Of a stretch of DNA of 64,000 nucleotides, positions 39,826 through 60,570 are shown piece after piece. The DNA comes from Methylobacterium mesophilicum SR1.6/6 (GTDB taxonomy: Bacteria; Pseudomonadota; Alphaproteobacteria; Rhizobiales; Beijerinckiaceae), in NCBI RefSeq assembly GCF_000364445.2, contig NZ_CP043538.1, positions 1,867,612-1,931,611 of the forward strand. Direction: 5' to 3'. Every line of letters starts with the position of its first letter. Within the stretch, counting starts at the first letter, position 1. Position numbers and translations under genes: made by a program. The notes beneath the pieces are model-generated. The model was not told where the DNA came from, did no database searches, and saw only the letters and a list, made by a program, of their open reading frames with translations.

Positions 39826-39839
39826 TTGATCCAGCGCAT
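39826..39839. promoter_or_regulatory. FixK/FNR-like box TTGAT-CCAG-CGCAT
   Basis: The left half-site is perfect, the right half weak. It ends 59 bases before the start of the P1B ATPase, a fitting distance for an activator site. Confidence 0.5.
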
Positions 39840-39898
39840 AACCCTTCGCACAGCCCGGCCGCAGTCAGGAGGCTCGCAAAGCCGAGGACGCCCCGAGG

Positions 39899-41803
39899 AT
39901 GTCGACTGCGGCCGTAGGCTCAACCGAAGCAGGATGCTCGAAGGTCGCCGGGTGGGCGTCACGGCTGCGGGAATGGCTGGCCCTCCTCCCGCTCACTGCC
40001 CTCTGCGTGGGCCTTCTGCTGCGCGCGCTGGGTCATCCCGAATTCGCCGCCTGGGCGTGGACGCTTGCGACCCTGACGATCTTCGGCGCCCTCCTGATCC
40101 AGATCGCGGCGAGTCTGACGAAGGGTGACGTTGGGCTCGACCTCGTCGCCCTGATCTCGATGGGCGGCGCACTCGCCCTATCCCAGCCGCTGACTGGCGC
40201 CGTCATCGCCCTCATGTACGCGGGCGGCGAGGCGCTGGAAGCTTACGCGGCTGGCCGAGCCGGGCGGGCGATGACGGCGCTGCTCACCCGCCAGCCGCGC
40301 ACCGCCCTGCGCGAGGAAGAAGGCGCGTTGAGAGAGGTCCCCATCGCCGCGCTAAAACCGGGAGACCGCATTCTGGTGCGCGTCGGTGACGTCCTGCCGG
40401 TGGACGGCCGGGTTGCCGCGGGTCGCGCCGTGCTCGACCAGTCGAGCCTCACTGGCGAAGCGCTGCCCGTCACCTTCCGCGCGAACGAACCTGTGCTGAG
40501 CGGCACGGTGAACATGGGCACGCCGTTCACCCTGATGACGGGGCGGCGCGCGGCCGAGAGCACGTATGCCGGGATCGTCCAGCTCGTGGAGGCGGCGCGA
40601 GCCCAAAAGGCGCCGATGGCACGGTTGGCGGACCGATACGGGCTCGCTTTCCTCTTCCTCACGCTGCTGCTGGCCGGGGGCACCTGGCTCGCTACCGACG
40701 ACCCCCTTCGGACGCTGGCTGTGCTGGTCGTCGCCACGCCATGCCCGCTGATCCTGGCGGTGCCCGTCGCCCTCGTCTCCGGCCTCTCCCGCGCAGCCGG
40801 CATCGGCGTTCTCATCAAGGGCGGCGGCGCACTTGAGATGCTGGCCAAGGTCCGTGTGCTGGTGGTCGACAAGACGGGCACCCTGACCGACGGGGCCGCC
40901 CGGCTGACCGCTGCACGGATTCTGGGCGACCTTGGCGAAAGCGAGGTCCTGAGGCTCGTGGCGTCACTCGAACAGGCCTCCGGTCATCCGCTGGCACGCG
41001 CCCTGATCGAGGAGTCGGCTCGACGAGGCCTGACGCTCTCGCAGCCCGAAGACGTCGAGGAAACGCCCGGGGAAGGCATGGCCGGGCTGGTGGAGGGGCG
41101 GCTCGTCGTTGTCGGGGGACCGCACCTGATGCGGATGCACGGAGTCCACTTCCCGTCGCAGGACGAGGGCGGAGGCATGGCGGCAATCGCGGCAACCGTG
41201 CTGGTCGCCATCGACGGCGCGGCCGCCGCCGCGCTGGTGTTCGCCGATCCGCTGCGGGCGGACGGCGGCAACGCGCTCCTCGAACTGCGCGCGTGCGGCA
41301 TCGAGCGGGTCGTGCTCGCGACCGGAGACCGACGCGCCGTCGCGGAGGCGCTCGTCGCCGGCCTGCCGGTTGACGCCGTCGCCGCCGACCTGAACCCGAC
41401 AGACAAGACGGACGCCGTGACCGCAGAGCGCCGGCTCGGTCCCGTGATGATGGTGGGCGATGGCGTCAACGACGCGCCCGCCTTGGCAGCCGCCGACCTC
41501 GGCGTGGCCCTCGGCGCTCGGGGCGCGGCAGCCGCTGCCGAGGCGGCAGACGTCGTCCTGCTGGTCGACAGCCTAGCCCCGTTGTCGGATGCCATCCGCA
41601 TCGCGAAGCGGACCCGTGCCATCGCGCTTCAGAGCGTGTGGGCAGGCCTGGGGCTTTCGGTCGCCGGCATGATGGCGGCTGCGCTGGGCCACCTCACGCC
41701 CCTGCAAGGGGCGCTTCTGCAGGAGGCTATCGACGTCGCCGTGATCCTCAACGCCATGCGCGCGCTGGGCGGTCCCCGGGGCGGCCGCCAGCGGTGGGCA
41801 TAA
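39899..41803 (+). CDS. Heavy-metal P1B-type ATPase with TPC motif
   Basis: A protein of 634 residues. It uses ATP to move a transition metal across the inner membrane. The actuator has SSLTGEALPVTF, the phosphorylation site is VVDKTGTLTDG near residue 324, and the hinge is MVGDGVNDAPALAAAD. The metal-binding transmembrane motif is ATPCPLILAVPVAL near residue 280, i.e. Thr-Pro-Cys instead of the Cys-Pro-Cys of copper and zinc pumps. No N-terminal CxxC domain and no C-terminal hemerythrin domain are present. The metal cannot be fixed from this; TPC pumps are a poorly studied group sometimes linked to iron or nickel. A FixK-like box lies upstream, so expression should rise at low oxygen. Confidence 0.85.
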   Translation: MSTAAVGSTEAGCSKVAGWASRLREWLALLPLTALCVGLLLRALGHPEFAAWAWTLATLTIFGALLIQIAASLTKGDVGLDLVALISMGGALALSQPLTGAVIALMYAGGEALEAYAAGRAGRAMTALLTRQPRTALREEEGALREVPIAALKPGDRILVRVGDVLPVDGRVAAGRAVLDQSSLTGEALPVTFRANEPVLSGTVNMGTPFTLMTGRRAAESTYAGIVQLVEAARAQKAPMARLADRYGLAFLFLTLLLAGGTWLATDDPLRTLAVLVVATPCPLILAVPVALVSGLSRAAGIGVLIKGGGALEMLAKVRVLVVDKTGTLTDGAARLTAARILGDLGESEVLRLVASLEQASGHPLARALIEESARRGLTLSQPEDVEETPGEGMAGLVEGRLVVVGGPHLMRMHGVHFPSQDEGGGMAAIAATVLVAIDGAAAAALVFADPLRADGGNALLELRACGIERVVLATGDRRAVAEALVAGLPVDAVAADLNPTDKTDAVTAERRLGPVMMVGDGVNDAPALAAADLGVALGARGAAAAAEAADVVLLVDSLAPLSDAIRIAKRTRAIALQSVWAGLGLSVAGMMAAALGHLTPLQGALLQEAIDVAVILNAMRALGGPRGGRQRWA

Positions 41804-41852
41804 GGTGTCGCCCGCCGTCCGTGAGGCCGGTCCCGACGGTGCCCCTGCGAGC

Positions 41853-41866
41853 TTGCGATGGATCAA
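41853..41866. promoter_or_regulatory. FixK/FNR-like box TTGCG-ATGG-ATCAA
   Basis: The right half-site is perfect. The box ends 63 bases before the universal stress gene at 41930. Confidence 0.6.
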
Positions 41867-41929
41867 GGTGGCCCATCCCAGGCGAGGCAAGCTTCCCGTC
41901 GTCGGCATCGAGGCACGACGGAGGAGACC

Positions 41930-42742
41930 ATGGACTACGCGAACATCCTCGTCTCCATCGATCACGGCGACGCGGCGCCCGACCGGATCCGTCTCGCCGG
42001 CCACTTGGCCCGACGGTTTGAGGCGACCCTCACGGGAGCGGCCGGCCACAAGGTGCCGGTGCCGCTCTTGGTACGGGACGCTTACGACGCCGTCGCGCAG
42101 GAGGAACGAAACATCGCGGACGTCCGCCGTATCCTCGACGCGGCGCGTGCCCTGTTCGAGCGGAGCGCCGGGACGGAGATCCGCACGGACTGGCGCGAGG
42201 CTCTCGCCGATCCCGTCACACACTTCGTGGAGCGGGCCCGCGAGGCCGACCTCGTCGTGATCAGCCGGCTCGGGCCGGATGACGAGGACCCCGGGCCCCT
42301 CGCCGTGCCGCCCGGACCGGTGCTGATGGAAGCTGGCCGGCCCGTCCTGGTCGTGCCGCCGCGGCTCATGAACCTGAACGCGGCCCGCATCGTCGTGGCC
42401 TGGAAGGACGGGCCTGAGGCCCGGCGGTCGGTGACAGCGGCGCTGCCTTTCATTCGCGATGCAGATCACGTCTTCGTCGCGACCGTCGGCGCGAACGGGG
42501 AGCGCGAGGGCGCCGGCGACGTCGCCGCCCACCTCGCCCGTCACGGCGCCCACGTCACCGTCCACCTCCTGGATCCGACCGGACGCGACGGCGACGAGAT
42601 CGTCGGCTTCGCCCTGCGACGGGACGCGGACCTCATCGTGATGGGCGCCTACGGCCATTCCCGTCTGCGGGAATGGATGTTCGGCGGGGTCACGCGTGAC
42701 CTTCTGGACCGTTCGCCCCTCTGCTGCCTGATGTGCCACTGA
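41930..42742 (+). CDS. Tandem-domain universal stress protein
   Basis: A protein of 270 residues with two UspA-like regions. The first begins YANILVSIDHGDAAPDRIRL and is degenerate in its nucleotide loop. The second begins AARIVVAWKDGPEARRSVTA and ends with the ATP-binding phosphate loop MGAYGHSRLREWMFGG. It is cytoplasmic and probably binds ATP; such proteins protect cells during stasis and low oxygen. GGAGGAG precedes ATG 41930. Its TGA overlaps the ATG of the cytochrome gene, so the two are coupled. Confidence 0.85.
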   Translation: MDYANILVSIDHGDAAPDRIRLAGHLARRFEATLTGAAGHKVPVPLLVRDAYDAVAQEERNIADVRRILDAARALFERSAGTEIRTDWREALADPVTHFVERAREADLVVISRLGPDDEDPGPLAVPPGPVLMEAGRPVLVVPPRLMNLNAARIVVAWKDGPEARRSVTAALPFIRDADHVFVATVGANGEREGAGDVAAHLARHGAHVTVHLLDPTGRDGDEIVGFALRRDADLIVMGAYGHSRLREWMFGGVTRDLLDRSPLCCLMCH

Positions 42743-43068
42743 TGTCCGGCAGGGGCATGGTCCTCGGCACGACCGTGGCGCTCTGCCTGCTCGCCAAGCC
42801 CGCCGCGGCGGAGAAGGTCTCGGCAGCGCGCGGCCGAGACCTCGCGGGCGTCGTCTGCGCGCGCTGCCACGCGGTCCGCGCGACGGACGCGAGCCGGATG
42901 CGCGAGGCGCCGCCGTTCCGCGCGCTCGCCGGCACATTCCCCATCGGTGACCTCGCCGACGTCCTGGACGAAGGCGTCGAGCGCCGCCATCCGGCCATGC
43001 CGGACTTCCGGCTCAGTCCGCGCGACGCCGCCGACCTGACGGCCTACATCAGGACGCTCAGGCGGTGA
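42742..43068 (+). CDS. Small c-type cytochrome
   Basis: A protein of 108 residues with signal peptide (MVLGTTVALCLLAKPAAA) and one haem-binding motif VVCARCHAVRA; the axial Met is likely in RRHPAMPDFRLS. It is a class I periplasmic cytochrome c. It overlaps the universal stress gene (TGATG) and therefore shares its FixK-like control. A likely role is electron transfer to a high-affinity oxidase or peroxidase at low oxygen; that is inference. Confidence 0.85.
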   Translation: MSGRGMVLGTTVALCLLAKPAAAEKVSAARGRDLAGVVCARCHAVRATDASRMREAPPFRALAGTFPIGDLADVLDEGVERRHPAMPDFRLSPRDAADLTAYIRTLRR

Positions 43069-43084
43069 GACGTACGTAGAGGTG

Positions 43085-43119
43085 CCGGCGAACGGGTGCT
43101 GCGGACGAACGTTCGCCGG
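43085..43119. repeat. Perfect 10-bp inverted repeat between cytochrome and BLUF genes
   Basis: CCGGCGAACG at 43085-43094 and CGTTCGCCGG at 43110-43119 are reverse complements, 15 bases apart. The structure lies 16 bases after the cytochrome stop and 27 before the BLUF start. It may end the first transcript or be an operator for the BLUF gene. Confidence 0.45.
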
Positions 43120-43146
43120 GACACCGATGCCCAGGGAACGGGTACC

Positions 43147-43551
43147 ATGGACGGATCGCTTCTCTACGTCAGCCGGCGGGTCTCATCCGATGCTGACGTC
43201 CGGGACATCGTCGCGACGTCCAGGGCCAGGAACGCCGGGCTCCGGATCACGGGTGCGCTTGTCGCATCCCGGAGCAGGTTCGCGCAGATCCTCGAGGGTC
43301 CACGCTCCGGGGTGGACGCGCTGATGGACAGCATCCGCCGCGACCCGCGCCACACCGGCGTGGAGGTGCTGGTCTACGACGACATCGACGGGCGGCGCTT
43401 CGCGGACTGGACCCTGGCCTATTCCGGCGCTTCCGTTTACGTCGACGGGCTGATCGGGGCCCTGACCGAGCGCGCCACGCCTGAACCGCACCGGGCCGAC
43501 CTTCACCGTCTGATCCAGGCCATCGAGGAACTCGCGCGGGCACAGCTGTGA
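43147..43551 (+). CDS. BLUF blue-light receptor protein
   Basis: A protein of 134 residues. It is a short BLUF domain that binds FAD and changes shape in blue light. Key residues are present: Tyr in SLLYVSRRV, Asn in RARNAGLRITGAL, Gln in RFAQILEGPRSGVDAL and Trp in FADWTLAYSG. It has no output domain; a helical C-terminal extension (HRADLHRLIQAIEELARAQL) could contact a partner. ATG 43147 is used. It lies in the low-oxygen island but has no FixK-like box of its own. Confidence 0.88.
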   Translation: MDGSLLYVSRRVSSDADVRDIVATSRARNAGLRITGALVASRSRFAQILEGPRSGVDALMDSIRRDPRHTGVEVLVYDDIDGRRFADWTLAYSGASVYVDGLIGALTERATPEPHRADLHRLIQAIEELARAQL

Positions 43552-43592
43552 CGGCCCCGCAAGCCTGAAGCGCAGCGGTGCGCGCGGCCCCA

Positions 43593-43808: not shown

Positions 43809-43821
43809 CGAACTCCCGTGC

Positions 43822-44694
43822 TCAGTGGGCGAGGAACAGCGGGGCCGGGCTGCCCCTCAGGAAGGAGCGCGTCACACCACCGAGGAAGTATTCGCGTGTG
43901 GGTGAGTGCCGGTAGGCGCCCATCACGATCATGTCGGCCCGGAACAGCCCGGCCTGGGCGCGCAGGGTCGCGGCGACGCTCTCGCCCCTTGGCAGGTCGT
44001 TGACGGTGGCGTTCACCCCGTGGCGGGCGAGATGGGGCGCGAACTCGGCCCCCGGCACCTCGGCGTGGATCTCCGCCTCGGTGCCGACGGACACGATCTC
44101 GACCGCCTCGGCCGCGCGCAGGAACGGCAACGCGTCGTTCGCCGCCCGCGCGGCCTGGGCGCTGCCGTCCCAGGCGACCATGATCCGCCGCACCGTGAAG
44201 GCATCGTGTCCCGGCGGCACCGCGATGACCGGGCGCCCGCTGTGGAACAACGCCTTCTCGATCATCTCGCGGTCGAGGTCGAAGGCCCGAGCGCCGATGT
44301 CCAAGACGGTCAGGTCGTGCAGGCGCGCGCGCTCGGTAAGCCGGCTCACGATCTCCGGATAGGGCAGGCTCGGCGTCTCCGTCATGCAGATCACGCCGGC
44401 CTGCGCCGCGTCACCGGCCGAGCGCTGCGCGATGGAGCGGGCCAGCGCGTCGAGCCGGCGGTCGATGACCGCGACGCCCTCGTCATCGAAGTCGCCGAGC
44501 CAAGCGTCGTCACCCGAGAGGCGCCACGAGGCCGATTGGACGGTGAGGTGGGCGCCGGCGGCCTTGGCCAAGGTCAGGCCATAGCCGATGGCCGACGAGG
44601 CCCCTTCGCGCTCGCCCTCCACGGCGGTGCCGACGAGGACGTCGCGGATGCCCGCGAGGGCCGAAGGGCTGGTCGAAGGGCTGGGTCTGGACAT
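43822..44694 (-). CDS. Tandem-domain universal stress protein
   Basis: A protein of 290 residues with two Usp regions. The first begins IRDVLVGTAVEGEREGASSA and is followed by GYGLTLAKAAGAHLTVQSAS. The second begins RRIMVAWDGSAQAARAANDA and holds the nucleotide loop MGAYRHSPTREYFLGG. The end PLFLAH is shared with the Usp at 49799-50659, and the two are clear paralogues. ATG 44694 begins the protein after GGAGAA. A FixK-like box at 44751 lies 56 bases upstream. Confidence 0.88.
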   Translation of the reverse strand: MSRPSPSTSPSALAGIRDVLVGTAVEGEREGASSAIGYGLTLAKAAGAHLTVQSASWRLSGDDAWLGDFDDEGVAVIDRRLDALARSIAQRSAGDAAQAGVICMTETPSLPYPEIVSRLTERARLHDLTVLDIGARAFDLDREMIEKALFHSGRPVIAVPPGHDAFTVRRIMVAWDGSAQAARAANDALPFLRAAEAVEIVSVGTEAEIHAEVPGAEFAPHLARHGVNATVNDLPRGESVAATLRAQAGLFRADMIVMGAYRHSPTREYFLGGVTRSFLRGSPAPLFLAH

Positions 44695-44750: not shown

Positions 44751-44764
44751 TTGATCCACCTCAA
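44751..44764. promoter_or_regulatory. FixK/FNR-like box TTGAT-CCAC-CTCAA
   Basis: One mismatch from the palindromic consensus. It sits 56 bases before the leftward Usp gene and about 170 bases before fixL on the other side. Confidence 0.7.
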
Positions 44765-44930
44765 GCGGCTCGGCCCAAAGAACTATCCGACGCCGACTTT
44801 GAAAACCTGTCGGCGGCTGTTCCTTGTACCGGAATCGCAGTAATGACCGGACGCGCGATGCAACTGGTCTGAAGGCGGAGAGAGGCCAGTTTCACGACCG
44901 CCGCGCGCAGGATTTTTCCGGGTGCGGTTC

Positions 44931-46481
44931 ATGACGGACCCCGTCGACATGCCCAGCGCCGGCCTTGAGCGAGACGTCACGCCGGCGAGTGACGAGCTTC
45001 GGCAGACCCTGGACGAGGTCGGCATCTGCGTCTGGTCGCTGGATATCCCGACCGGGCGGGCCACCATCTCACCGACCTGCGCGCGCCTGTTCGGAGTGCC
45101 GCCCGAGCGGCTGACCACCTTCGCCGACTCACAGGCTCTGGTGCACCCCGACGACCGACAGGGCCGGGCAGACGCCATCCAGAGGACCTTGCGGGATGGC
45201 GGGAGCTACGAGGTCGACTACCGCGTCGTGCGGCCCGACGGACACGTCTGCTGGCTGCGCTCGCGCGGGCGGGTGAGCCTTGATGCGGCCGGCCGGCCGG
45301 CACGGCATCGCGGGGTGGTCCTGAGCATCGACGAGCAGAAGCGGGCCGAGGAAGACATCCGGGCACGCGCGGCGCACCTGCGCTCGATCCTCGACACCGT
45401 GCCCGAAGCGATGGTCGTCATCGACGAGGCGGGCCTCATCCATTCCTTCAGCGCCGCGGCCGAGCGCCTGTTCGGTTACGCGGCCGGCGAGGCGGTCGGG
45501 CAGAACGTCCGCATCCTGATGCCGGAGCCGATGCGGCGCGAGCATGACGGCTACCTCGAGCGCTACCACCGGACCGGCGAGCGCCGCATCATCGGCACCA
45601 ACCGGGTCGTAACCGGCCAGAGACGCAACGGCTCGACCTTCCCGATGGAGCTCGCCATCGGGGAGATGCGCTCGGGCGAGCAGGTGTACTTCACCGGCTT
45701 CATCAACGACCTCACCGAGCACCAGCGGACCCAGGCGCGCCTCCAGGAACTCCAGTCCGAACTCGCCCATGTCTCCCGGCTCAGCGCGATGGGCGAGATG
45801 GCCTCCGCGCTCGCGCACGAATTGAACCAGCCGCTCGGCGCCATCGCGAACTACACCAAGGGCTGCCGCCGTCTGCTGGCGCGCACCGGCCCCGAAGCCA
45901 TCGCCAAGACGATGGAGATCCTCGACAAGACCGCCGAGCAGGCGTTGCGAGCCGGCCAGATCATACGGCGCTTGCGCGAGTTCGTAGCCCGAGGCGAGAC
46001 CGAGAAGCGGGTCGAGCCGGTCGCGCGGTTGATCGAGGAAGCCAGCGCGCTGGCGCTGGTCGGGGCCCGCGAGCAGGGCATCGTCACGCGCGTCGCTGTC
46101 GACCCGCGGGCCGGCTCCGTTCTCGCCGACAGGGTCCAAGTGCAGCAAGTCCTGGTGAATCTGCTGCGCAACGCCCGCGAGGCCATGCAACGGAGCGACA
46201 GGCGCGAACTGACCGTCGAGGCGAGACCCCTCGGCCGGAGGGCGGTCGAGATTGCCGTGTCGGACACCGGTCCCGGCATTGCCGAAGAGATCGCGGACAG
46301 GTTGTTCCACCCATTCGTCACCACGAAGCAAAGCGGCATGGGCGTGGGGCTCTCGATCTGCCGCACCATCGTGGAGGCGCATGGCGGACGCCTCGACGTC
46401 GAACGCAACGACGTCGGCGGGGCGACCTTCCGGCTGACGCTCCCGGCCGCCCACGAGGGGAACCCGCGCGATGGCAAGTGA
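44931..46481 (+). CDS. fixL: Oxygen-sensing histidine kinase FixL
   Basis: A protein of 516 residues without membrane segments. The first PAS (about 25-140) has [18 protein letters not shown]. The second PAS (about 145-265) is the haem domain: the proximal His is in [12 protein letters not shown] near residue 205, and [19 protein letters not shown] keeps the conserved Arg near the oxygen. The kinase core has phospho-His near 296 in [15 protein letters not shown], then [13 protein letters not shown] (N box), [11 protein letters not shown] and GMGVGLSIC. Bound oxygen shuts off the kinase. Its stop overlaps the fixJ start, so the pair is coupled. GTG 44922 would add three residues. Confidence 0.9.
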
Positions 46482-47079
46482 TCTCGTGCATGTCGTGGAC
46501 GACGACCCGGCGATGCGGGACTCTGTCGGCTTCCTGCTCGGAACCGAGGGGTTCGAGATCCGGCTCTACGAGGCCGGGGCGGACCTGCTCGATGGGCTGG
46601 CGAAACCGTCCGCGGGCTGCGTCCTGACCGACATCCGCATGCCGGGCATCGACGGGCTCGAACTGCTGCGCCGTCTGCGGGCGGCGGGGCACGCCTTGCC
46701 GGTGGTGATGATGACGGGGCACGGGGACGTGCCGCTCGCGGTCGAGGCGATGAAGCTCGGCGCCTGCGACTTCATCGAGAAGCCGTTCGACGACGACGCG
46801 CTCATCCAAGCGCTCAGGTCGGCCTTGGAGCGGGGCGAGGTCACCGGAGCGGTCGATCCGACGCTGCGCGAGTTCGTGCGTCGCGTGGGAACCCTGAGCG
46901 AGCGCGAGCGGCAGGTCCTGGACCACCTCGTCGCCGGCCGCACCAGCAAGGAGATCGGCCGAACGCTCGACATCAGCCCGCGCACCGTCGAGATCTACCG
47001 GGCCAAGCTCATGGCCAAGACGCAGGCGGAGAACCTTCAGGAACTGGTGCGCTGGTCGGTGCTGACCGGCTTGGCCTGA
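46471..47079 (+). CDS. fixJ: Response regulator FixJ
   Basis: A protein of 202 residues. The receiver has [18 protein letters not shown], Asp in [16 protein letters not shown], Thr in [15 protein letters not shown] and Lys in [12 protein letters not shown]. The C-terminal LuxR-type DNA-binding domain has [20 protein letters not shown] and [13 protein letters not shown]. Phosphorylated by FixL at low oxygen, it should activate the fixK gene at 48846 and perhaps other promoters. It overlaps fixL by 11 bases. Confidence 0.92.
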
Positions 47080-47086
47080 CACCGGC

Positions 47087-47100
47087 TTGAGGCAGGTCAA
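47087..47100. promoter_or_regulatory. FixK/FNR-like box TTGAG-GCAG-GTCAA
   Basis: A palindromic TTGA-N6-TCAA core. It lies just after the fixJ stop and 68 bases before the receiver-only gene at 47169. Confidence 0.65.
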
Positions 47101-47168
47101 GGCGGCCGCCGGCCTGTTCTCGCATGGTGGCGATCTTCAATCGAGGACCGCACCGACCGGCAGCAGCC

Positions 47169-47633
47169 ATGACCACAGCTTCACCCCGCCTCGTCTACGT
47201 CGTGGACGACGACCCGGCCGTTCTCCATTCCACGCGCTTCCTGATCGAAGGCGAGGGCCATGCTGTCGAGACGTTCACCGACGGCTCAGGCCTGTTGGCG
47301 GCCTTCCCGGGGCCGCGCCCGGCGTTGATCCTGCTCGATCACGTCATGAAGGGCATGGACGGCCTTGAGGTGTTCGACCGACTTCGCAAGCTCGACGCCA
47401 AAGTCCCGGTGGTGCTGGTCACCGGCCATCCCGACCCGGGCATCCGAGCGCGGGCCAGGGATGCGGGCTTGCCCTTGGTCGAGAAACCACTGGTGTTCGA
47501 CGCGTTACTCGACCTGCTTGCCAGAGAAGCGCGCGATCCCATGCCCTCAGGCTTGAGCGGGAAGGCCATGGCGGATCCGGGCGCGTCCGCCGCCCGCCGC
47601 CCGCCTGGCGAGATCCCCGCGCAGCCGGCCTGA
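47169..47633 (+). CDS. Single-domain response regulator near FixJ
   Basis: A protein of 154 residues. The receiver is complete: VYVVDDDPAVLHSTRF, Asp in ALILLDHVMKGMDGLE, Thr in PVVLVTGHPDPGI and Lys in PLVEKPLVFDAL. It has no output domain; the tail is Pro/Ala-rich. It could act as a FixL phosphate sink or antagonist, comparable in effect to FixT, though a receiver rather than a FixT homologue. It has its own FixK-like box upstream, which suggests negative feedback. This role is inference. Confidence 0.75.
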   Translation: MTTASPRLVYVVDDDPAVLHSTRFLIEGEGHAVETFTDGSGLLAAFPGPRPALILLDHVMKGMDGLEVFDRLRKLDAKVPVVLVTGHPDPGIRARARDAGLPLVEKPLVFDALLDLLAREARDPMPSGLSGKAMADPGASAARRPPGEIPAQPA

Positions 47634-47652: not shown

Positions 47653-47666
47653 TTGCGGCAGATCAA
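47653..47666. promoter_or_regulatory. FixK/FNR-like box TTGCG-GCAG-ATCAA
   Basis: The right half-site is perfect. It starts 19 bases after the stop of the receiver gene. No protein-coding start follows at the usual distance. Confidence 0.55.
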
Positions 47667-47903
47667 GGCCGCGCGATGACTTCTCCCCTAGCTCCGAAGC
47701 CAGCCGGAACGAGGAAAGCACACGCTGTCCCCTCAACGTGGGCCATGGGGCGTTCCGCGTAAGCCGCCGCGCCCGCGAAGTCCCGCGGCGGGCTTCACAC
47801 GTCGCGACCGTCGATCTCCGGCATGAGCAGGTCCGGGCCGGGACGCCGGCCCCACGCGGGTTGCGTACCGCGGGGATAGGGTTTCAGCTCCCCTTCGCTC
47901 CCC

Positions 47904-47917
47904 TTGAGCCACATCAA
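47904..47917. promoter_or_regulatory. FixK/FNR-like box TTGAG-CCAC-ATCAA
   Basis: One base from the consensus palindrome. It ends 118 bases before the SPW-repeat gene, a little further than for the other targets. Confidence 0.65.
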
Positions 47918-48718: not shown

Positions 48719-48744
48719 ACGCGGGGGAGAGGGCGCCTACGTAA

Positions 48745-48758
48745 TTGCCCTTAAGCAA
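48745..48758. promoter_or_regulatory. FixK/FNR-like box TTGCC-CTTA-AGCAA upstream of fixK
   Basis: Half-sites TTG and CAA are kept with variant inner bases. It ends 87 bases before fixK ATG 48846. It could be an autoregulatory site or part of a FixJ-controlled promoter. Confidence 0.45.
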
Positions 48759-48845
48759 ACCTGCGTAAGAGACCGACCGGAATTTCCCCGGAGTTCCGGC
48801 CCCGCCAATCTTCCCTCCATCCCAATGCGGACGAGGAGAGACGCG

Positions 48846-49532
48846 ATGGCCGCCGAGATCACCCTGCACCCGTCTTCGCGCGTGACCGCGAACGCTACTG
48901 GCGGCGGCAAGCTCGGGATCGCGCTCTTCGCCGGCTGTCCCGAACTCATCGGCACCCCCTTCGCCTATGCCCGCGAGGAGGAGATCTATGGCGAGGGCGA
49001 GGAGGCCGAGTTCGTCTACAAGGTCGTCAGCGGCGCGGTGCGCGCCCACAAGGTTCTGAACGACGGCAGACGCCAGATCACCGGCTTCCACCTGCCCGGC
49101 GACCTGTTCGGCCTGGAGCAGGGCGAGATGCACCGGCACACGGCCGAGGCCTTGTCGGAGACACAGGTGCTGATCTTCCGCCGGCGCGGGGTCGAGCGCG
49201 CCGCGACCCGCAGCGCCGAGGTAGCCTGCCAACTCTGGGCCATGGCGGCCAGCGGCCTTCGCCACGCCCAGGACCATATGCTGCTGCTCGGTCGTCGCTC
49301 CGCGGTCGAGCGCGTCGCGACCTTCCTCATGGAGGTGGACGAACGTCTTGGCGGTACCGGAACCTTCGCCCTGCCGATGACCCGGCGCGACATCGCGGAT
49401 CACCTCGGCCTCACCATCGAGACCGTGTCGCGGACCTTCTCGCAATTGGAGGAGGACGGGGCGCTGCTGCGCACGGGCGGGCGCCAGGTCAGCCTTCGCC
49501 GCGCCCGACTTCGCCGCATTGTCGAAGATTGA
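48846..49532 (+). CDS. fixK: Crp/Fnr-family regulator FixK-type
   Basis: A protein of 228 residues. The cyclic-nucleotide-like beta barrel has EEIYGEGEEAEFVYKVVSGA and GFHLPGDLFGLEQGE. The four N-terminal cysteines that hold the Fe-S cluster of FNR are absent, so it does not sense oxygen itself and should depend on FixLJ for its expression. The DNA-reading helix MTRRDIADHLGLTIETVSRT has the E-x-x-S-R residues that read TTGAT half-sites. This matches the 13 boxes around. ATG 48846 (MAAEITLHP) follows GAGGAGA. Confidence 0.88.
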   Translation: MAAEITLHPSSRVTANATGGGKLGIALFAGCPELIGTPFAYAREEEIYGEGEEAEFVYKVVSGAVRAHKVLNDGRRQITGFHLPGDLFGLEQGEMHRHTAEALSETQVLIFRRRGVERAATRSAEVACQLWAMAASGLRHAQDHMLLLGRRSAVERVATFLMEVDERLGGTGTFALPMTRRDIADHLGLTIETVSRTFSQLEEDGALLRTGGRQVSLRRARLRRIVED

Positions 49533-50713: not shown

Positions 50714-50727
50714 TTGATCCAGCGCAA
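50714..50727. promoter_or_regulatory. FixK/FNR-like box TTGAT-CCAG-CGCAA
   Basis: Perfect left half. It lies 54 bases before the leftward Usp gene start. Identical in sequence to the box at 57455. Confidence 0.7.
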
Positions 50728-51125: not shown

Positions 51126-53826
<2,701 letters not shown>

Positions 53827-53834
<8 letters not shown>

Positions 53835-54228
53835 GGCGCAGCCGGTCGAGGGACACGCCGTTCGGGCAGAACTCCGGGTAGGTGTCGGCGGCCGTCCCTG
53901 ACCATAGCTCGCGCGTGCACCGGCTGCGCTCCGTGCAGCCCAGGCAGGCCGCTTCGAGCGCCCGCATGGCCTCGGGCTGCCGCCGCCGGATGGCCTCGGG
54001 GTCGAGGTCGAGGCTACGCATCAGCCTCGCGACGCTGCGGACCTTCGCGGCGGCTTCCGAGGACAGGGGAGCGGAAGCCGGGGCGTCAGCCTCCAGCATC
54101 GTCGCCATCATCTCCGCATCGATGTCCCTGAGCTCCCGGGCGGCCTTCAACAGGCAGCACCACTCGCCCATCGAGGCGGCGATACCGAACGGGTCGAACG
54201 GGTCGGGTTTGTCGGTGGATGCAGTCAT
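53827..54228 (-). CDS. DUF6455-type Cys-rich protein
   Basis: A protein of 133 residues without signal peptide. The C-terminal part matches DUF6455: ACLGCTERSRCTRELW and YPEFCPNGVSLDRL, i.e. C-x2-C, a third Cys and FCPN, which suggests a bound metal or a redox-active cluster. The N-terminal half is helical (MGEWCCLLKAARELRDID). ATG 54228 is chosen after GGAGG; the frame opens upstream. It leads the operon with the P2-type ATPase and small membrane protein. A FixK-like box lies 48 bases upstream. Confidence 0.7.
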
Positions 54229-54276: not shown

Positions 54277-54290
54277 TTGACCCATCTCAA
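54277..54290. promoter_or_regulatory. FixK/FNR-like box TTGAC-CCAT-CTCAA
   Basis: It lies in the divergent region, 48 bases before the DUF6455/ATPase operon and 149 bases before the APH-AAA gene. The first is the more likely target. Confidence 0.6.
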
Positions 54291-54439: not shown

Positions 54440-56023
54440 ATGTCGCCCGTGGACCAAGACGCCGTCGTCCGATTCGTGACGCGCGCCCTTTCGGATGCGG
54501 GAACAGTGGACACCGCGACCACGCATATCTCCCGGCTCTTCCTGGCAGAGGATCGCGTGTTCAAGCTCAAGCGCGTCGTCCGCTTCCCCTATCTCGATTT
54601 CTCGACGCCCGAACGCAGGTTGGCCGCCTGCGAGGCCGAGGTGGCGCTCAACCGCCGTACAGCGCCCGCGCTCTACCTCGGGGCCCGGCGGATCACGCGC
54701 GAACCGGGCGGGACCCTGGCTTTCGATGGAGACGGTCCCCTCGTCGACGCCGTGGTGGAGATGCGCCGCTTTCCGGAGGCGGACCTGTTCGACGCCATGG
54801 CACGGGATGGTCGCCTGGGAGCGCACCACATCGCCGACCTCGCGCACGTCATCGCGACCTTTCATGCCGGCGCGGAGATCCACCGCGACTGCGGAGGCGC
54901 CGCCGCCATGGAGGCGCTCGTCGACATGAACGGGGTCGCGCTCCGAACGACAGGACTCGCCTCGGCCGACGTGGCGGAGTCGATGACGGCCCGATTCCGT
55001 GCGGTCCTGGCGCGACACGCGCCCCTGCTCGACGCCCGCCGCGCCGCCGGCAAGGTCCGTCGCTGCCACGGCGATCTCACCTTGCGCAACATCTGCCTGT
55101 TCGAGGGAAGACCGACGCCGTTCGACTGCATCGAGTTCAGCGAGACCATCGCGACGACCGACGTCCTCTACGACCTCGCCTTCGTCCTCATGGACCTCTG
55201 GCACCGGGAGCGCTTCGACCTCGCCAACCGCCTGCTCAACCGCTACCTCGACGTGGCGGACGAGACTGACGGGATCGGCTTGCTGCCGTTCCTGATGGCT
55301 CTGCGCGCGGTCATCCGCGCCCATGTCACGGCGGCGCAAGCCGCCGGTGGGACCGGCGATGTCGCTGCCGCGACGACCTCGGAGGCGCAAGCCTATCTGG
55401 CGCTCGCGGAAAACCTGCTGACCGACAGGCCCGTCTTCCTCCTCGCCGTCGGTGGCTTCAGCGGCTCCGGAAAGTCGAGCGTCGCTGCGGCGGCCGCTCC
55501 CCGGATGGGCGCCCCCCCGGGCGCCCGGGTCCTGTCGAGCGACCGCATCCGGAAGCGGCTGCACGGGGTCGGCGCTCTGACCCGGCTGCCGGCCTCGGCC
55601 TACGCCTCTGCCGTGTCGCTTCGCGTCTACGCGGCACTCCGGCTGGAGGCCGCACGGGTCCTGGCCGTGGGCCATTGCGCCGTCGCCGATGCGGTCTTCG
55701 ACCGCCGTACGGAACGGGATGGCATCGAGGCGGTCGCCCGGGACAATGACGCGGGGTTCGTCGGCGTTTGGCTGGAGGCGCCGACCGCGACGCTCGCGAG
55801 CCGCATCGCGTCGCGCGTCGGTAACCCTTCGGACGCGACCGCGGCGGTTCTGGCGGCCCAGGTCGCGCGCGGCTGCGGCGCCCTCACGTGGCCTCGTCTG
55901 CAGGCGGACCTGCCGCTGGACGTCCTGGGCTCGACCGTCCTGTCTCTCGACAGGAGCGTCGGGGCGAGGTGGGGCGGCCGCCGGCCCGGCCGCCCGAAGC
56001 GGGTCCAAAAATCCCGACCGTAG
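54440..56023 (+). CDS. Fusion of aminoglycoside-phosphotransferase-like kinase and AAA-type P-loop kinase
   Basis: A protein of 527 residues. The N-terminal 330 residues are an APH-like kinase: FKLKRVVRFPYLDFSTPERR (Lys site), catalytic loop RRCHGDLTLRNICLFEG and metal site DCIEFSETIATTDVLYDLAF. From residue 335 a P-loop domain begins LLAVGGFSGSGKSSVAAAAA, followed by VLSSDRIRKRLHGVG and AVADAVFDRRTERDGIEAVA, as in AAA_33 small-molecule kinases. Substrates are unknown; resistance to aminoglycosides is unlikely. The same fusion is encoded by a DosR-controlled gene in mycobacteria (Rv2004c, as I recall). Long stretches are intact, so it should be functional. Confidence 0.8.
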   Translation: MSPVDQDAVVRFVTRALSDAGTVDTATTHISRLFLAEDRVFKLKRVVRFPYLDFSTPERRLAACEAEVALNRRTAPALYLGARRITREPGGTLAFDGDGPLVDAVVEMRRFPEADLFDAMARDGRLGAHHIADLAHVIATFHAGAEIHRDCGGAAAMEALVDMNGVALRTTGLASADVAESMTARFRAVLARHAPLLDARRAAGKVRRCHGDLTLRNICLFEGRPTPFDCIEFSETIATTDVLYDLAFVLMDLWHRERFDLANRLLNRYLDVADETDGIGLLPFLMALRAVIRAHVTAAQAAGGTGDVAAATTSEAQAYLALAENLLTDRPVFLLAVGGFSGSGKSSVAAAAAPRMGAPPGARVLSSDRIRKRLHGVGALTRLPASAYASAVSLRVYAALRLEAARVLAVGHCAVADAVFDRRTERDGIEAVARDNDAGFVGVWLEAPTATLASRIASRVGNPSDATAAVLAAQVARGCGALTWPRLQADLPLDVLGSTVLSLDRSVGARWGGRRPGRPKRVQKSRP

Positions 56024-56052
56024 GAAGTCGAACGGCGCACGCACGGTGCGTC

Positions 56053-56066
56053 CGTTGATGCAGGTC
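56053..56066. promoter_or_regulatory. FixK/FNR-like box TTGAT-GCAG-GTCAA
   Basis: One base from a perfect palindrome. It ends 59 bases before ATG 56126 of the S41 protease, the usual spacing in this island, and 38 before an upstream ATG at 56105. Confidence 0.7.
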
Positions 56067-56125
56067 AAGGCGATGCCGGATGCAGGCAGCCACCCTGACC
56101 TCGTATGGGCAATCGGGGCCGGGCG

Positions 56126-57490
56126 ATGCCTCTTACAGCGACCACAGGCGAGCCGGCACACGACCGGCGTACCCACGGTCGCGCATTCAGGTGTTTGATC
56201 GTCGGCTTGGCCGGGGTCGCCGGGGCTGTCGTCGCGGTCCTCGCGACGCCGGCGTCACCCGACGCCGGCGTGGGGTCGAACCGCTTCAACGAGCTTCCAT
56301 ATCGCGATCTGCTCGCCTTCGGGGCCGCGTTCCACGCCATCCGGACACGGGCGGTCGACGTGCGTGGCGAGGGCCAGTTGATCGATGCGGCGATAGCCGG
56401 GCTGGTCGCCACGCTGGACCGGCATTCACGCTACCTCACCGCAGCCGAGTTCCGCCGGCTCGACCAGCAGGACACCGGGAGCTACTCCGGCGTCGGACTG
56501 GAGGTCGAGGCAGGCGGGACGGTCGGGAGCACGCTTCCGGACGCCCCGGCGGCGCGGGCCGGCCTCGCGCCTGGGACCGTGATCGAGAGCATCGCCGGCG
56601 CCGCGGCCGAGAACCTCGGACCCGACAAGGTCGCCGACCTCCTGAGGGGGGAGCCGGGCTCCACCGTGCACCTGCGGGTCGTCCGTCCGGGCGAACGTGC
56701 CCCGTCCGAGGTGGTGCTGACACGGGAGTGGCTGCCGCTGCACCCGGTCCGCATGCGGGCTCTGGACACCGTCGCCTATGTCGGGCTCGACCACTTCGAC
56801 GCGTTCACCTCCGGCCGGCTGCTCAAGGCAGTCGCGACCCTGAAGGCCGGTATCGGTCGTGACCGGCTCTCGGGCTTCGTCCTGGATCTTCGCGGCAATC
56901 CGGGCGGCCTCGTCGTGCAGGCTGTGGCGGTGGCCGGGGCCTTCCTGGGGCGCGGCGAGATCGTTCGCTTGGTCGGTCGCGGCTCCGGGAACGTCGAGCG
57001 GTTCGCGCTGGACAGGACCGGCGAGGACCGGATCGACGGCCTGCCGCTCGTCGTGCTCGTAGACAGGGGCACGGCCTCCGCGGCGGAGATCGTCGCGGGT
57101 GCGCTCCAGGACCACCGACGTGCGACCGTCATAGGCACGCGCACCTACGGCAAGGGTGCCGTCCAGACCACCTATGCCCATCGGGGCGGGCGCGGTCTGC
57201 GGCTGACGACGGCGTGGGTCGTCACGCCCGCGGGCCACCGGGTGGAAGGCAACGGCATCGAGCCCGATTGCGTGGTGCCCAAGAACGGCACAGTGGCCGG
57301 CGTTGACGGTGGACCATCGGGGAGGCGGTTCGGGAGCGGCGGGTCCCTGCAGGACGGCATCGTCGAGGACGGCCTGATAGATCCTTCGCGGGACCGACAG
57401 TTGACCGCTGGCCTGAGGCGCCTTCAGGCAGTCGATCAGGCCGGCGACGACGGCTTGATCCAGCGCAACGACCCCGCCGCCGGCCGATGA
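56126..57490 (+). CDS. S41-family C-terminal processing protease
   Basis: A protein of 454 residues with an N-terminal membrane anchor or signal (CLIVGLAGVAGAVVAVLATP). A PDZ domain (GSYSGVGLEVEAGGTVGSTL to SIAGAAAENLGPDKVADLLR) recognises C-terminal tails. The protease core has GFVLDLRGNPGGLVVQAVAV, catalytic Ser in DRGTASAAEIVAGALQDH and catalytic Lys in GTRTYGKGAVQTTY. It acts in the periplasm on selected proteins. ATG 56126 is preferred over 56105 because it gives a usual box-to-start spacing and a GGGCCGGGCG site. A FixK-like box is upstream, so it may remodel envelope proteins at low oxygen. Confidence 0.85.
   Translation: MPLTATTGEPAHDRRTHGRAFRCLIVGLAGVAGAVVAVLATPASPDAGVGSNRFNELPYRDLLAFGAAFHAIRTRAVDVRGEGQLIDAAIAGLVATLDRHSRYLTAAEFRRLDQQDTGSYSGVGLEVEAGGTVGSTLPDAPAARAGLAPGTVIESIAGAAAENLGPDKVADLLRGEPGSTVHLRVVRPGERAPSEVVLTREWLPLHPVRMRALDTVAYVGLDHFDAFTSGRLLKAVATLKAGIGRDRLSGFVLDLRGNPGGLVVQAVAVAGAFLGRGEIVRLVGRGSGNVERFALDRTGEDRIDGLPLVVLVDRGTASAAEIVAGALQDHRRATVIGTRTYGKGAVQTTYAHRGGRGLRLTTAWVVTPAGHRVEGNGIEPDCVVPKNGTVAGVDGGPSGRRFGSGGSLQDGIVEDGLIDPSRDRQLTAGLRRLQAVDQAGDDGLIQRNDPAAGR
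57455..57468. promoter_or_regulatory. FixK/FNR-like box TTGAT-CCAG-CGCAA
   Basis: It lies inside the end of the protease gene, 61 bases before the MgtA-like ATPase start. Identical to the box at 50714. Confidence 0.7.
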
Positions 57491-57529
57491 TGTCGTCCGC
57501 CACGAGCGGAAGGCGTCGGACCCACCCCT

Positions 57530-60133
57530 ATGAGAAAGACCGCGGGTCCGGCCCTCGCCCAGAGTGCTTCCTCGCCGCCGGACCTGCCGCCAGCCGCGGC
57601 CACCGCGCCCTTCTGGACGCGCGAGCCCGAGGCGCTCTGCGCCGAACTCGGATGCGGGCTCGACGGGCTCGGCTCGGTTGACGCCGGACGGCGGCTCGAA
57701 CGCTTCGGGCCCAATAGCGACGCCAGGAAGAGAGCTTCGGGCGTTTGGCAGGCGGTGCTGCGACGCCTGCTCGAACCGCTCGCCCTGATCCTGCTCGCGG
57801 CCGGGCTCGTCTCGGTCTTGACCGGCGAGGTCGTCGGGGGTGCGATTATCGTCGTCATCCTCGGCCTGTCCATCGGGCTCGACACCGTGCAGGAGGGCCA
57901 CGCCAAGAGGGCGGCCGAGGCCTTGCGCCACGCGGTTGCGCTGAAGGCCGAGGTCCGGCGCGACGGCGGCTTCCTCACTGTTCCGGTGGAGCAGGTTGTG
58001 CCAGGCGACATCTTGCGCGTGCGTGCCGGCGACATCGTCCCGGCCGACGCCCTCGTCATTGAGAGCGACGCGTTCACCGCCACCGAGGCCGCGCTCACGG
58101 GTGAGCCCTATCCGGTCGGGAAGCGACCGGGCCCCGTGACGGCCACCGAGCCGGCAGAGGCCGCGAACGCCCTCTTCCGCGGCGCTGTCGCTCAGACGGG
58201 TGAGGCGACAGCCCTCGTCGTCGCGACCGGCCCGGCAACGATGTTCGGCGCCGCGGCCTCGGCTCTGGCCGAGGTGCAGGCATCCTCGCCCTTCCAGCGC
58301 GACCTGCACGCATTCGGCTTGATCGTCGCGCGGCTGACCCTCGGTCTGGTGCTCGCCGTTCTGGCGGTCCGCGTCGTCCTGGGCCGGCCGGTCGTCGACT
58401 CCCTCCTGTTCGCCGTCGCCCTCGCCGTCGGCCTGACGCCGGAGTTGCTGCCGATGGTCACCACCGTGACGCTCTCGCGGGGGGCGATGCGCATGGCCGC
58501 GCGCAAGGTCATCGTGAAGCGCTTGGCCGCCATTCACGACCTCGGCGCGATGACCGTGCTGTGCACCGACAAAACCGGCACGCTGACCTCAGCCGAGATC
58601 GCGCTGGCGCGCAGCCTCGACCCGGCGGGCCGGCCGGACGAGCGGCCGGCGAGGCTTGCGGCGGTCGCGGCCGCCCTCGGCGGAGACCGCGGTTCGCTCG
58701 ACGCCGCCTTGGCGCATGCCCATCCGGACGCCGGGAGGGTTTGGGAACTCGCCGGCCAGCGGGCGTTCGACTACGGACGCCGCTCCGGTTCGGTCCTCGC
58801 GCGGGGACCCGAGGGGCCGCTGCTGATACTGAAGGGCGCCCCCGAGGCCGTGCTGGCCCTCTGCCAAGCGCGACGTGCCGGAGGGCGGATCGAACCGATG
58901 GGCCCGAGAGGTCGCGACGAGGCTCTCGGGCAGGTCCGGACCCTGGCCGAAGATGGGCTACGCAGCATCGCGGTGGCCTCGCGCCCGTGGGTCGGTTCCC
59001 CGCACCCGCTCGGTGTCGCGGACGAGATCGACCTCGTCTTCGAGGGCTTCTGCGCCTTTGCCGACCCGCCCAAGCCGACGGCTGATGCCGCCATCGCGCG
59101 GCTCGCGCGGGCCGGCGTGCACGTGAAGATCCTGTCCGGCGACGACCCTGTGGTCGTGCGCCGGCTCGCGGGCCTCGTCGGGCTGCGGGCCGGCACGGTC
59201 CTATCGGGCCCTGAAATCGCGGGACTGAGCGACGCGGCCCTCACGGTCCGGGTCCGGAAGGTGGATGCGTTCGGGCGGCTGGCGCCCGACCAGAAGGCGC
59301 GCGTCGTCCGGGCTTTGCAGGCCAAGGGCGCCGTCGTCGGCTTCCTGGGCGACGGCATCAACGACGCGCCGGCCCTCGCGCAAGCCGACATCGGCCTGTC
59401 GGTCGACGGCGCGACCGGTGTAGCGCAGGCGGCCGCCGACATGATCCTGCTCGCCTCCGACCTGGAGGTCGTCGCCGACGGCGTCGAGGAGGGACGGCGA
59501 ACCTTCGCCAACATCCTGAAGTACGTCCGCATGGGGGCGAGTTCGAACTTCGGCAACATGCTCTCGATGGCGGTCGCCTCGGTGGCGCTGCCGTTCCTGC
59601 CGATGCTGCCGACGCAAATCCTCCTCAACAACCTGCTCTACGACCTCTCCGAGGTCGGCATCCCCTTCGACCGGGTGGCCCCGTCCGCGACCGCCCGGCC
59701 CCAGGTCTGGGACATGGCGGCGGTCCTCCGGTTCGCGGGGGTGATGGGTCCGCTCTCGTCGCTGTTCGACCTCCTGACCTTCGGCACGCTGCTCCTCGTC
59801 TTCGACGCGTCGGCCGAGGCGTTCCGCACCGCTTGGTTCCTGGAATCGATGGCGACGCAGATCCTGGTGATCTTCGTCATCCGGACGAACGGCCGCCCCT
59901 GGGAGGATCGTCCGAGCGCGGCGGTGGCCGGATCCTCGCTCGCCGCGCTGGCAGCCGCGCTGGCCCTTCCATTCTCCCCGGCGGGAAGCTGGTTCGGCTT
60001 CCAGACCCCCGCCCTGCCGATCCTGGTCGCCATCGGGCTGATCACCGTCACCTACCTCGCGGCGGTCGAGGCCGTGAAGCCATGGGTGGTCCGCCCGCGA
60101 CACCGCGCCCAGGGCCGACGTCCGGGAGCTTGA
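57530..60133 (+). CDS. P-type ATPase, MgtA-like magnesium/cation transporter
   Basis: A protein of 867 residues. The actuator has TEAALTGEPYPVGKR, helix 4 has AVGLTPELLPMVTTVTLS, the phosphorylation site is VLCTDKTGTLTSAEI near residue 346, and the hinge is GFLGDGINDAPALAQAD. Helix 5-6 has GASSNFGNMLSMAVAS and LLNNLLYDLSEVGIPFD, the typical signature of the P3B magnesium-import group. The length is close to MgtA. No leader or riboswitch is seen; a FixK-like box is upstream. It could keep cytoplasmic magnesium or another cation when energy is short. Confidence 0.85.
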   Translation: MRKTAGPALAQSASSPPDLPPAAATAPFWTREPEALCAELGCGLDGLGSVDAGRRLERFGPNSDARKRASGVWQAVLRRLLEPLALILLAAGLVSVLTGEVVGGAIIVVILGLSIGLDTVQEGHAKRAAEALRHAVALKAEVRRDGGFLTVPVEQVVPGDILRVRAGDIVPADALVIESDAFTATEAALTGEPYPVGKRPGPVTATEPAEAANALFRGAVAQTGEATALVVATGPATMFGAAASALAEVQASSPFQRDLHAFGLIVARLTLGLVLAVLAVRVVLGRPVVDSLLFAVALAVGLTPELLPMVTTVTLSRGAMRMAARKVIVKRLAAIHDLGAMTVLCTDKTGTLTSAEIALARSLDPAGRPDERPARLAAVAAALGGDRGSLDAALAHAHPDAGRVWELAGQRAFDYGRRSGSVLARGPEGPLLILKGAPEAVLALCQARRAGGRIEPMGPRGRDEALGQVRTLAEDGLRSIAVASRPWVGSPHPLGVADEIDLVFEGFCAFADPPKPTADAAIARLARAGVHVKILSGDDPVVVRRLAGLVGLRAGTVLSGPEIAGLSDAALTVRVRKVDAFGRLAPDQKARVVRALQAKGAVVGFLGDGINDAPALAQADIGLSVDGATGVAQAAADMILLASDLEVVADGVEEGRRTFANILKYVRMGASSNFGNMLSMAVASVALPFLPMLPTQILLNNLLYDLSEVGIPFDRVAPSATARPQVWDMAAVLRFAGVMGPLSSLFDLLTFGTLLLVFDASAEAFRTAWFLESMATQILVIFVIRTNGRPWEDRPSAAVAGSSLAALAAALALPFSPAGSWFGFQTPALPILVAIGLITVTYLAAVEAVKPWVVRPRHRAQGRRPGA

Positions 60134-60143
60134 TCTGCCTCAA
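60130..60143. promoter_or_regulatory. FixK/FNR-like box TTGAT-CTGC-CTCAA
   Basis: It overlaps the stop of the MgtA-like gene and ends 79 bases before the ATPase-zeta paralogue. Confidence 0.65.
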
Positions 60144-60222
60144 GGCTGGCCGCCAGGGCCGGTCGAAGGATGGCTGATCCGCCGCCGGTACGGTCCGGCG
60201 CCGCACTGAGACGGAGGCTTCA

Positions 60223-60570
60223 ATGACCACGATGTTCGACGAGCGCGAGCGGGCCGCCGAGCGCTGCTTCGTCCAGGAGGAGGAAGCGCGCTTCCACGCC
60301 CGCAACCGGCGCAATCGGCTCCTCGCGACCTGGGCCTGCGAGCGGATGCGCCTGACCGGTACCACGGCTGAGGGTTACGTCACCGCCTTCACGGAGTGGG
60401 CGGTCGTGACCGACGACGAGACGCTGATCGCGAGGCTTCGGTCAGACCTGAAAGCCGCCGGCATCGAGACGACGGCCGCTCGCCTGCGCACGGAAATGGG
60501 GCGGTGCACCGCGCTGGCGCAGGCCGAGCGGCGCGTCGGCGTTGCGCTGGATCAAGGCTCCTCCGTCTAG
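60223..60570 (+). CDS. F1-ATPase inhibitor zeta-subunit-like protein (DUF1476)
   Basis: A protein of 115 residues. It begins MTTMFDERERAAERCFVQEE, nearly the start of the alphaproteobacterial ATPase zeta subunit, then ARFHARNRRNRLLATWACER, the conserved second part. Zeta is the IF1-like plug that stops the ATP synthase from running backward. The C-terminal helices are more divergent. The usual zeta gene is expected elsewhere in the chromosome, so this would be a low-oxygen paralogue. A GGAGG site precedes the ATG and a FixK-like box lies upstream. Confidence 0.75.
   Translation: MTTMFDERERAAERCFVQEEEARFHARNRRNRLLATWACERMRLTGTTAEGYVTAFTEWAVVTDDETLIARLRSDLKAAGIETTAARLRTEMGRCTALAQAERRVGVALDQGSSV
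60542..60555. promoter_or_regulatory. FixK/FNR-like box TTGCG-CTGG-ATCAA
   Basis: It lies within the last codons of the zeta-like gene and ends 78 bases before ATG 60634 of the BON gene (63 before ATG 60619). Confidence 0.6.

Follow-up and report, generated by a model that had tools for sequence, protein, structure and literature searches.

The window analysed here is a 64-kb stretch (C1:1867612-1931611) of the 6.56-Mb single-contig genome of Methylobacterium mesophilicum SR1.6/6. Its right-hand part encodes FixL, FixJ and FixK amid a dense set of short palindromes of the form TTGN8CAA, nearly all of which fit the published FixK2 box, TTGA/C-N6-T/GCAA (PMC9104804), used here as TTGMN6KCAA. 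An earlier note had read thirteen such sites as a FixK-type regulon around FixL-FixJ-FixK, and their density, conservation in relatives and promoter geometry lend this reading strong support. With good confidence, the locus can be described as a FixLJ-FixK anoxia-survival island of Methylobacterium that includes a probable FixK-driven RNA. Its features are given below in window coordinates, with boxes named after their predicted reader and with the fraction of relatives in which the box accompanies the gene.

39826-39839, plus strand: FixK box of the P-type ATPase gene, last base changed (CAT); exact in 6/6 relatives
39899-41803, plus strand: heavy-metal P-type ATPase
41853-41866, plus strand: FixK box of usp1, 63 bp to the start; 5/6 relatives
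41930-42742, plus strand: universal stress protein Usp1
42733-43068: cytochrome c gene, downstream of usp1
43096-43551: BLUF gene, after the cytochrome c gene
43822-44694, minus strand: universal stress protein Usp2
44751-44764, minus strand: FixK box between usp2 and fixL; usp2 side, 7/8 relatives
44922-46481, plus strand: FixL, PAS-PAS-histidine kinase
46471-47079, plus strand: FixJ response regulator, above the NCBIfam FixJ cut-off
47087-47100, plus strand: FixK box of the single-domain response regulator; 8/8 relatives
47124-47633, plus strand: single-domain response regulator; the start may be 47169
47653-47666, plus strand: FixK box of the small RNA; same spacing in 25/30 fetched RNA loci, its own included
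47689-47694, plus strand: -10-like hexamer TAGCTC in the promoter of the RNA; the T at +28 is missing
47700-47795, plus strand: putative small RNA, about 96 nt, GC-rich hairpin at its end
47904-47917, plus strand: FixK box, 118 bp to the SPW start; a box also lies upstream of SPW in L012, L014 and L016
48036-48404, plus strand: SPW-repeat protein
48737-48786, plus strand: conserved fixK promoter block with FixJ-box-like CTACGTA, then TTAAG- and CCGGAAT-type blocks; includes site 48745
48825-49532, plus strand: FixK, Crp/Fnr family; start 48825 or 48846
49799-50659, minus strand: universal stress protein Usp3
50714-50727, minus strand: FixK box of usp3; 6/6 relatives
51126-53834, minus strand: cation P-type ATPase; best NCBIfam models calcium-type, below cut-off
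53827-54228, minus strand: DUF6455 protein
54277-54290, minus strand: FixK box of the DUF6455 gene, possibly also of the divergent gene at 54440; 1/3 relatives
54440-56023, plus strand: APH/AAA_33 protein
56055-56068, plus strand: FixK box of the S41 protease gene; 1/1 relatives
56105-57490, plus strand: S41 C-terminal processing protease
57455-57468, plus strand: FixK box of the magnesium-type ATPase; 1/1 relatives
57530-60133, plus strand: magnesium-type P-type ATPase, above the Mg-type cut-off
60130-60143, plus strand: FixK box of ATP synthase inhibitor zeta; 2/3 relatives
60223-60570, plus strand: ATPase inhibitor subunit zeta, sole Pfam match of its family in the genome
60542-60555, plus strand: FixK box of bon1; 4/4 relatives
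60634-61284, plus strand: BON-domain protein (bon1)
62152-64000, minus strand: phosphoketolase, continuing past the window end
64765 (window-equivalent): FixK box of phosphoketolase; 2/2 relatives

The excess of boxes is local rather than genome-wide, since TTGMN6KCAA occurs at 167 places in the genome and a reversed-pattern control at 177 (complete counts, with individual places listed as far as about 2.98 Mb). Within C1:1909464-1952875 (window coordinates 41853-85264; 43.4 kb) there are 22, against 145 in the remaining 6.51 Mb. The resulting densities are 0.51 per kb inside versus 0.022 per kb elsewhere (Poisson P about 2e-22, for a stretch picked after the fact), bearing out the concentration that the earlier note had proposed. 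No comparable set lies in the first 39 kb of the window, again as proposed, with two TTGN8CAA (2.9 expected) and no TTGMN6KCAA (1.0 expected). Between 39 and 64 kb the counts are 13 (1.0 expected) and 12 (0.34 expected), and the maxima across 200 first-order Markov sequences were 5 and 3, respectively. The box-rich stretch extends 21 kb past the window end. The dense FixK-type regulon stands, its originally estimated size of about 20 kb grows to about 45 kb, and its control by a single regulator is a matter of inference. The narrower pattern TTGATN6CAA gives 76 strand hits (74 places) in the genome, with 15 inside the 43.4-kb stretch, and 57-90 strand hits in each of eight relatives' genomes, with places listed for two of them and part of a third. 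Among the matches listed for M. fujisawaense, 22 places share a stretch of about 55 kb (C6:404245-459782), on a contig that, going by coordinates, also carries its fixK. The perfect palindrome TTGATN4ATCAA occurs at two places in the genome and at none in the island.

Eleven of the thirteen sites are exact TTGN8CAA matches where they were first placed, the one assigned to 56053 is exact at 56055, and the one at 39826 (TTGATCCAGCGCAT) has a single mismatch, CAT for CAA. The latter alone departs from TTGA/C-N6-T/GCAA, and the box is exact in all six relatives having the ATPase. An additional TTGN8CAA at 52441 (TTGACCACCACCAA) lies within a coding region and is probably a chance occurrence. The spacing of 48-87 bp between site end and start codon holds for ten of the thirteen sites, given the second ATG for 47087 (68 bp, versus 23 bp with the first); from 48745 to the fixK start it is 66 or 87 bp, depending on the start codon. 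The exceptions are 47653 (an RNA, no gene), 47904 (118 bp to the SPW gene) and 56055 (36 bp).

Conservation was assessed in nine relatives' loci of about 20 kb each (10.6 kb for L018), with the Agrobacterium locus L020 (FixK at 35%) left out. Ortholog hits below 50% identity, starting after residue 20 or having less than 120 bp upstream were dropped, a filter that leaves out SPW. A TTGN8CAA lies within 150 bp upstream of 50 of 56 orthologs of box-bearing genes, versus 4 of 41 where the gene has no box of its own. The boxes remain with their genes although these loci differ in the order and set of genes.

A further regularity appears downstream of the boxes. When 21 island boxes are oriented towards their genes (83440 and 52441, both in coding regions, and 48745 being left out), an A stands at +24 after 14 of them and a T at +28 after 11. 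The summed T-A-T score peaks at 27 at A(+24)/T(+28), where 5000 random sets reached at most 23. The pattern AnnnT at +24/+28 or +23/+27 follows 14 of 21 boxes in the sense and 2 of 21 in the antisense direction, and 21 of the 22 distinct RNA promoters from other genomes have it. Searching for a simple TANNNT after the boxes gave next to no hits; the element emerged from the aligned sense set. At class II promoters of the Crp/Fnr family, the activator site lies near -41.5. As the -10-like element begins 22-23 bp downstream of the boxes, these would be centred near -41.5, which, on sequence, is the arrangement of a class II Crp/Fnr-activated promoter. At +2, a G is present behind 20 of 21 boxes read in the sense direction (12 of 21 antisense) and in all 22 RNA promoters, which may mean that the sequence recognised by FixK extends past the box.

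No gene start codon is in reach of the box at 47653; it instead ends 33 bp ahead of a conserved element of about 96 nt. Element and box are conserved at equal distance in six named relatives, both being inverted in five, and a seventh, L017, has a weak RNA match and no box. With the window and the six relatives as input, a covariance model run under strict filters matched 25 of 79 genus genomes (54 without) and, among 199 genomes of the order, its own genome only. Rfam gave no match to the RNA at E<=0.1. There were 35 RNA matches in all, and 30 loci were fetched, several of them the same records as the model loci and not independent; at 25 of the 30, a TTGN8CAA ends 32-34 bp before the RNA. 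Across 23 distinct box-RNA units, mean identity is 0.82 for the box and 0.82 for the RNA; upstream, spacer and downstream sequences give 0.33, 0.39 and 0.31, respectively (random, 0.29). At 23 of the 30 fetched loci, fixJ, fixK or the response regulator gene is no more than 1.5 kb from the RNA. At four loci (L056, L065, L066, L067) it is distant from fixLJK and has the box at the same distance, that of L056 starting TTGG.

The RNA also tracks FixK across genomes. With FixK called at no less than 64% identity, a line set after seeing the list, 30 of 79 sampled genus genomes have FixK, and the RNA is present in 24 of these 30 versus 1 of the 49 without (Fisher P 1e-13). At a FixK threshold of E<=1e-40, the counts are 25 of 38 versus 0 of 41. 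Judged from sequence, the element has its own promoter and is non-coding, as expected of a trans-acting small RNA, and it is most likely a candidate FixK-driven hypoxia small RNA. It is likely to be structured, and its C-rich loop might be a candidate for pairing with ribosome-binding sites.

Site 48745, previously taken for a FixK palindrome, is another matter. Among nine aligned fixK promoters, only those of the window and L014 have a TTGN8CAA here, which makes FixK autoregulation through this site less likely. TACGTA, by contrast, is kept in eight of the nine and is followed by TTAAG and CGGAAT blocks. We take this block to resemble the FixJ site GTAMGTAG. Because TACGTA is conserved and the TTG...CAA reading is not, positions 48737-48786 are better read as a predicted FixJ-controlled fixK promoter.

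The regulators themselves fit such a cascade. The second PAS domain of FixL can be aligned over its full length with 1dp6, a haem PAS of FixL, and keeps the H-D-x-Y motif, whose histidine we take to be the haem-binding one; by alignment, FixL combines a haem-binding PAS with a histidine kinase. FixJ joins a receiver to a LuxR-type helix-turn-helix (HTH), scores 280.3 bits against an NCBIfam cut-off of 255 and matches 5xso in the PDB; a scan of viral contigs for FixJ found nothing. The best PDB match of FixK is FixK2 (4i2o, E 2e-69). Its Crp/Fnr fold carries the expected E-x-x-S-R recognition helix, as I-E-T-V-S-R, with the start at 48825 or 48846. It lacks the set of four cysteine ligands that marks FNR (as used in PMC2908626), as well as the redox-sensitive Cys183, a Thr lining up with the Ser that, by our count, is residue 183 in 4i2o, a C183S structure. 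Identity to the FixK of Methylobacterium longum is 92%, and to those of eight other Methylobacterium/Methylorubrum species it is 75-90% in the best segments; the tenth match, from Agrobacterium, is at 35%. The far end of the island (C1:1951929-1952849; window-equivalent 84318-85238) holds another Crp/Fnr open frame, with a box upstream (85251), and relatives L011 and L012 have a similar, box-bearing gene (38% and 34%) near fixK.

From the boxes, their density and conservation, the -10 register, the box-RNA unit and its co-occurrence with FixK, all visible in the DNA, a chain of events can be proposed in which the oxygen response, binding by FixJ and FixK, transcription of the RNA and its action on mRNAs are predicted steps. 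As oxygen falls, the haem sensor FixL would phosphorylate FixJ, and FixJ would activate fixK through the conserved CTACGTA element (48737 on). FixK would then bind TTG(A/C)N6(T/G)CAA boxes near -41.5 (class II) and turn on about 20 transcription units in 45 kb. Predicted targets are universal stress proteins, BON proteins, P-type ATPases, phosphoketolase, cytochrome bd and the ATP synthase inhibitor zeta. The non-coding and probably structured RNA of about 96 nt (47700-47795) would adjust mRNAs post-transcriptionally.

Several observations weigh against this account. FixL, at 694.9 bits, does not reach the NCBIfam FixL cut-off of 850, and FixK scores 222.9 bits against the 300 of the NCBIfam FixK (Caulobacter-type) equivalog model, which is nevertheless its best family. 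The boxes were oriented, unblinded, by whichever gene lies nearest downstream, promoters of orthologs do not count as independent, and 7 of 21 boxes lack AnnnT at either register, that of the window's own RNA promoter (TAGCTC) included. Five of the 30 RNA loci have no exact box (one mismatch in L054, none in L059, L068, L062 and L063), and six genomes with FixK have no RNA match under the strict filters (G053, G054, G065, G067, G070, G071). Evidence for the RNA fold is mixed. In an alignment that had been fitted to the structure, double changes affect seven pairs, where shuffles give 2.2 (7 was reached by 1 of 500 shuffles). Pair types number 18 versus 17.7 in shuffles, and the structure slid by one column keeps five double-changed pairs. 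Single sequences fold no more stably than their shuffles; RNAalifold found no double change in the seven-sequence set and a partly different fold in the larger one. No U-tract follows the terminal hairpin, so the 3' end of the RNA is uncertain.

That the conserved element is a small-protein mRNA, a leader or a repeat of the repetitive extragenic palindromic type with an incidental box is unlikely. An open frame, several of whose changes look synonymous, does cross the element in the window and L012, and genome G043 holds seven matches to the RNA model, of which the two copies read (L059, L068) lack a FixK box and also count against a FixK-driven RNA; they suggest a multiplied or mobile form. 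Every other matching genome has only one or two copies. The coding alternative, tried as a small open reading frame and rejected, is opposed by RNA lengths of 93-99 nt, which imply frame-breaking indels, and by four loci without any start codon. A leader is difficult to reconcile with the five of six named relatives in which the element is inverted towards the 3' end of the response regulator gene and therefore leads no gene there. Less probable still is that the main reader of the boxes is another Crp/Fnr protein, with which FixK shares some. The genome has 28 Crp/Fnr HTH matches, eight of them unread; three near-identical paralogues (L027, L030, L031) retain E-x-x-S-R in the form R-E-V-V-S-R, and the far-end regulator has its box directly upstream of its own open frame. 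However, FixK is encoded within the island, no other of the 20 HTHs read has I/V-E-x-x-S-R, and it is FixK that the box-bearing RNA follows from genome to genome; the far-end protein has V-H-V-N-R at the recognition place. Finally, there is hardly any chance that the sites are fortuitous or conserved for a reason other than FixK: TTGMN6KCAA is indeed not over-represented genome-wide, but local density, ortholog-linked conservation and the -10 register all oppose it.

On balance, we favour a broader reading of the FixK-driven RNA, in which a small RNA specific to the genus is a core output of the FixLJ-FixK cascade, with its own class II FixK promoter, moving and inverting beside fixK. It would form the FnrS-like arm of an alphaproteobacterial anoxia programme without cbb3 oxidase, built from box-bearing cassettes at one locus. 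FnrS of enterobacteria is a small RNA driven by a low-oxygen regulator of the Crp/Fnr family, of a different regulator branch and taxon from the Methylobacterium RNA. DosR is a regulator of another family. The DosR dormancy regulon is a hypoxia regulon with many universal stress proteins (cited in PMC6127331).

The island belongs to the known FixK/lxa type of anoxia regulon, to which the RNA is a new element. In the available portions of PMC9104804 and PMC6515984, the Bradyrhizobium diazoefficiens FixLJ-FixK2 regulon is alike in its FixL, FixJ, single response regulator and FixK-type regulator, in its box, down to an identical 14-mer (TTGATCCAGCGCAA), and in boxes lying mostly tens of bp upstream of starts. 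Shared target types are universal stress protein, phosphoketolase and cytochrome c, and several FixK2-dependent genes are clustered (bll4634 to blr4655). The single-domain response regulator (47124-47633) resembles bll2758, listed there as microoxia-induced. In contrast to B. diazoefficiens, no ccoN was found in the genome analysed here, its FixK has Thr in place of Cys183, its boxes are concentrated in one island, and a putative box-driven RNA is present. The lxa locus of Burkholderia cenocepacia, a 50-gene low-oxygen cluster, shares gene types (six universal stress proteins, BON, cytochrome c) and a proposed FixK/Anr-like regulator. It is betaproteobacterial, and the FixLJ homologues there, BCAL2210/2211, are not numbered among the lxa genes; the likeness rests on gene names, and the passages available contain no such RNA (PMC6127331). 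FixK regulons of Rhizobiales were predicted comparatively, including phosphoketolase and FixL, and Methylobacterium was placed in a group where FNR is reduced or missing and the FixK regulon is well conserved; the accessible text describes neither island nor RNA (PMC2908626). A Methylorubrum extorquens paper mentions FixK2, in the parts available, for Bradyrhizobium only (PMC6520949). Titles and passages of the literature yielded neither a FixK-driven small RNA nor this Methylobacterium island, which is no proof of absence.

The island shows a regulon physically assembled around its regulator, and its RNA opens a way to test riboregulation by FixK in Alphaproteobacteria. The presence of FixK in 30 of 79 genus genomes contrasts with the usual view of Methylobacterium species as strict aerobes. 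The locus also provides a ready list of candidate anoxia-survival genes, including cytochrome bd and the only zeta-type ATP synthase inhibitor. The boxed zeta gene (60223-60570), the only one in the genome, would brake ATP hydrolysis without oxygen. Beyond the window lie an ABC pair (CydDC-like by position), CydAB, four further Usp genes, and cytochrome c, BON, Nramp, ion channel and the second Crp/Fnr genes. No match to ccoN was found in the genome searched, and the classic cbb3 target of FixK is therefore missing; in place of fixNOQP control, a mark of FixLJ-FixK regulons, there is a box-bearing cytochrome bd.

Smaller groups of TTGATN6CAA occur near 2.37-2.38, 5.08 and 6.14 Mb, by genes for an aquaporin-type channel and DUF308 (2.37 Mb), BON (2.38 Mb) and Usp (6.14 Mb). 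At C1:2365700-2381976, six box matches form a second, smaller cluster near MIP, DUF308, AraC-type and BON genes. Just left of the island, at 36694-37665, lies a gene for a protein with sigma-70 regions 2 and 4 (PhyR-sigma-like).

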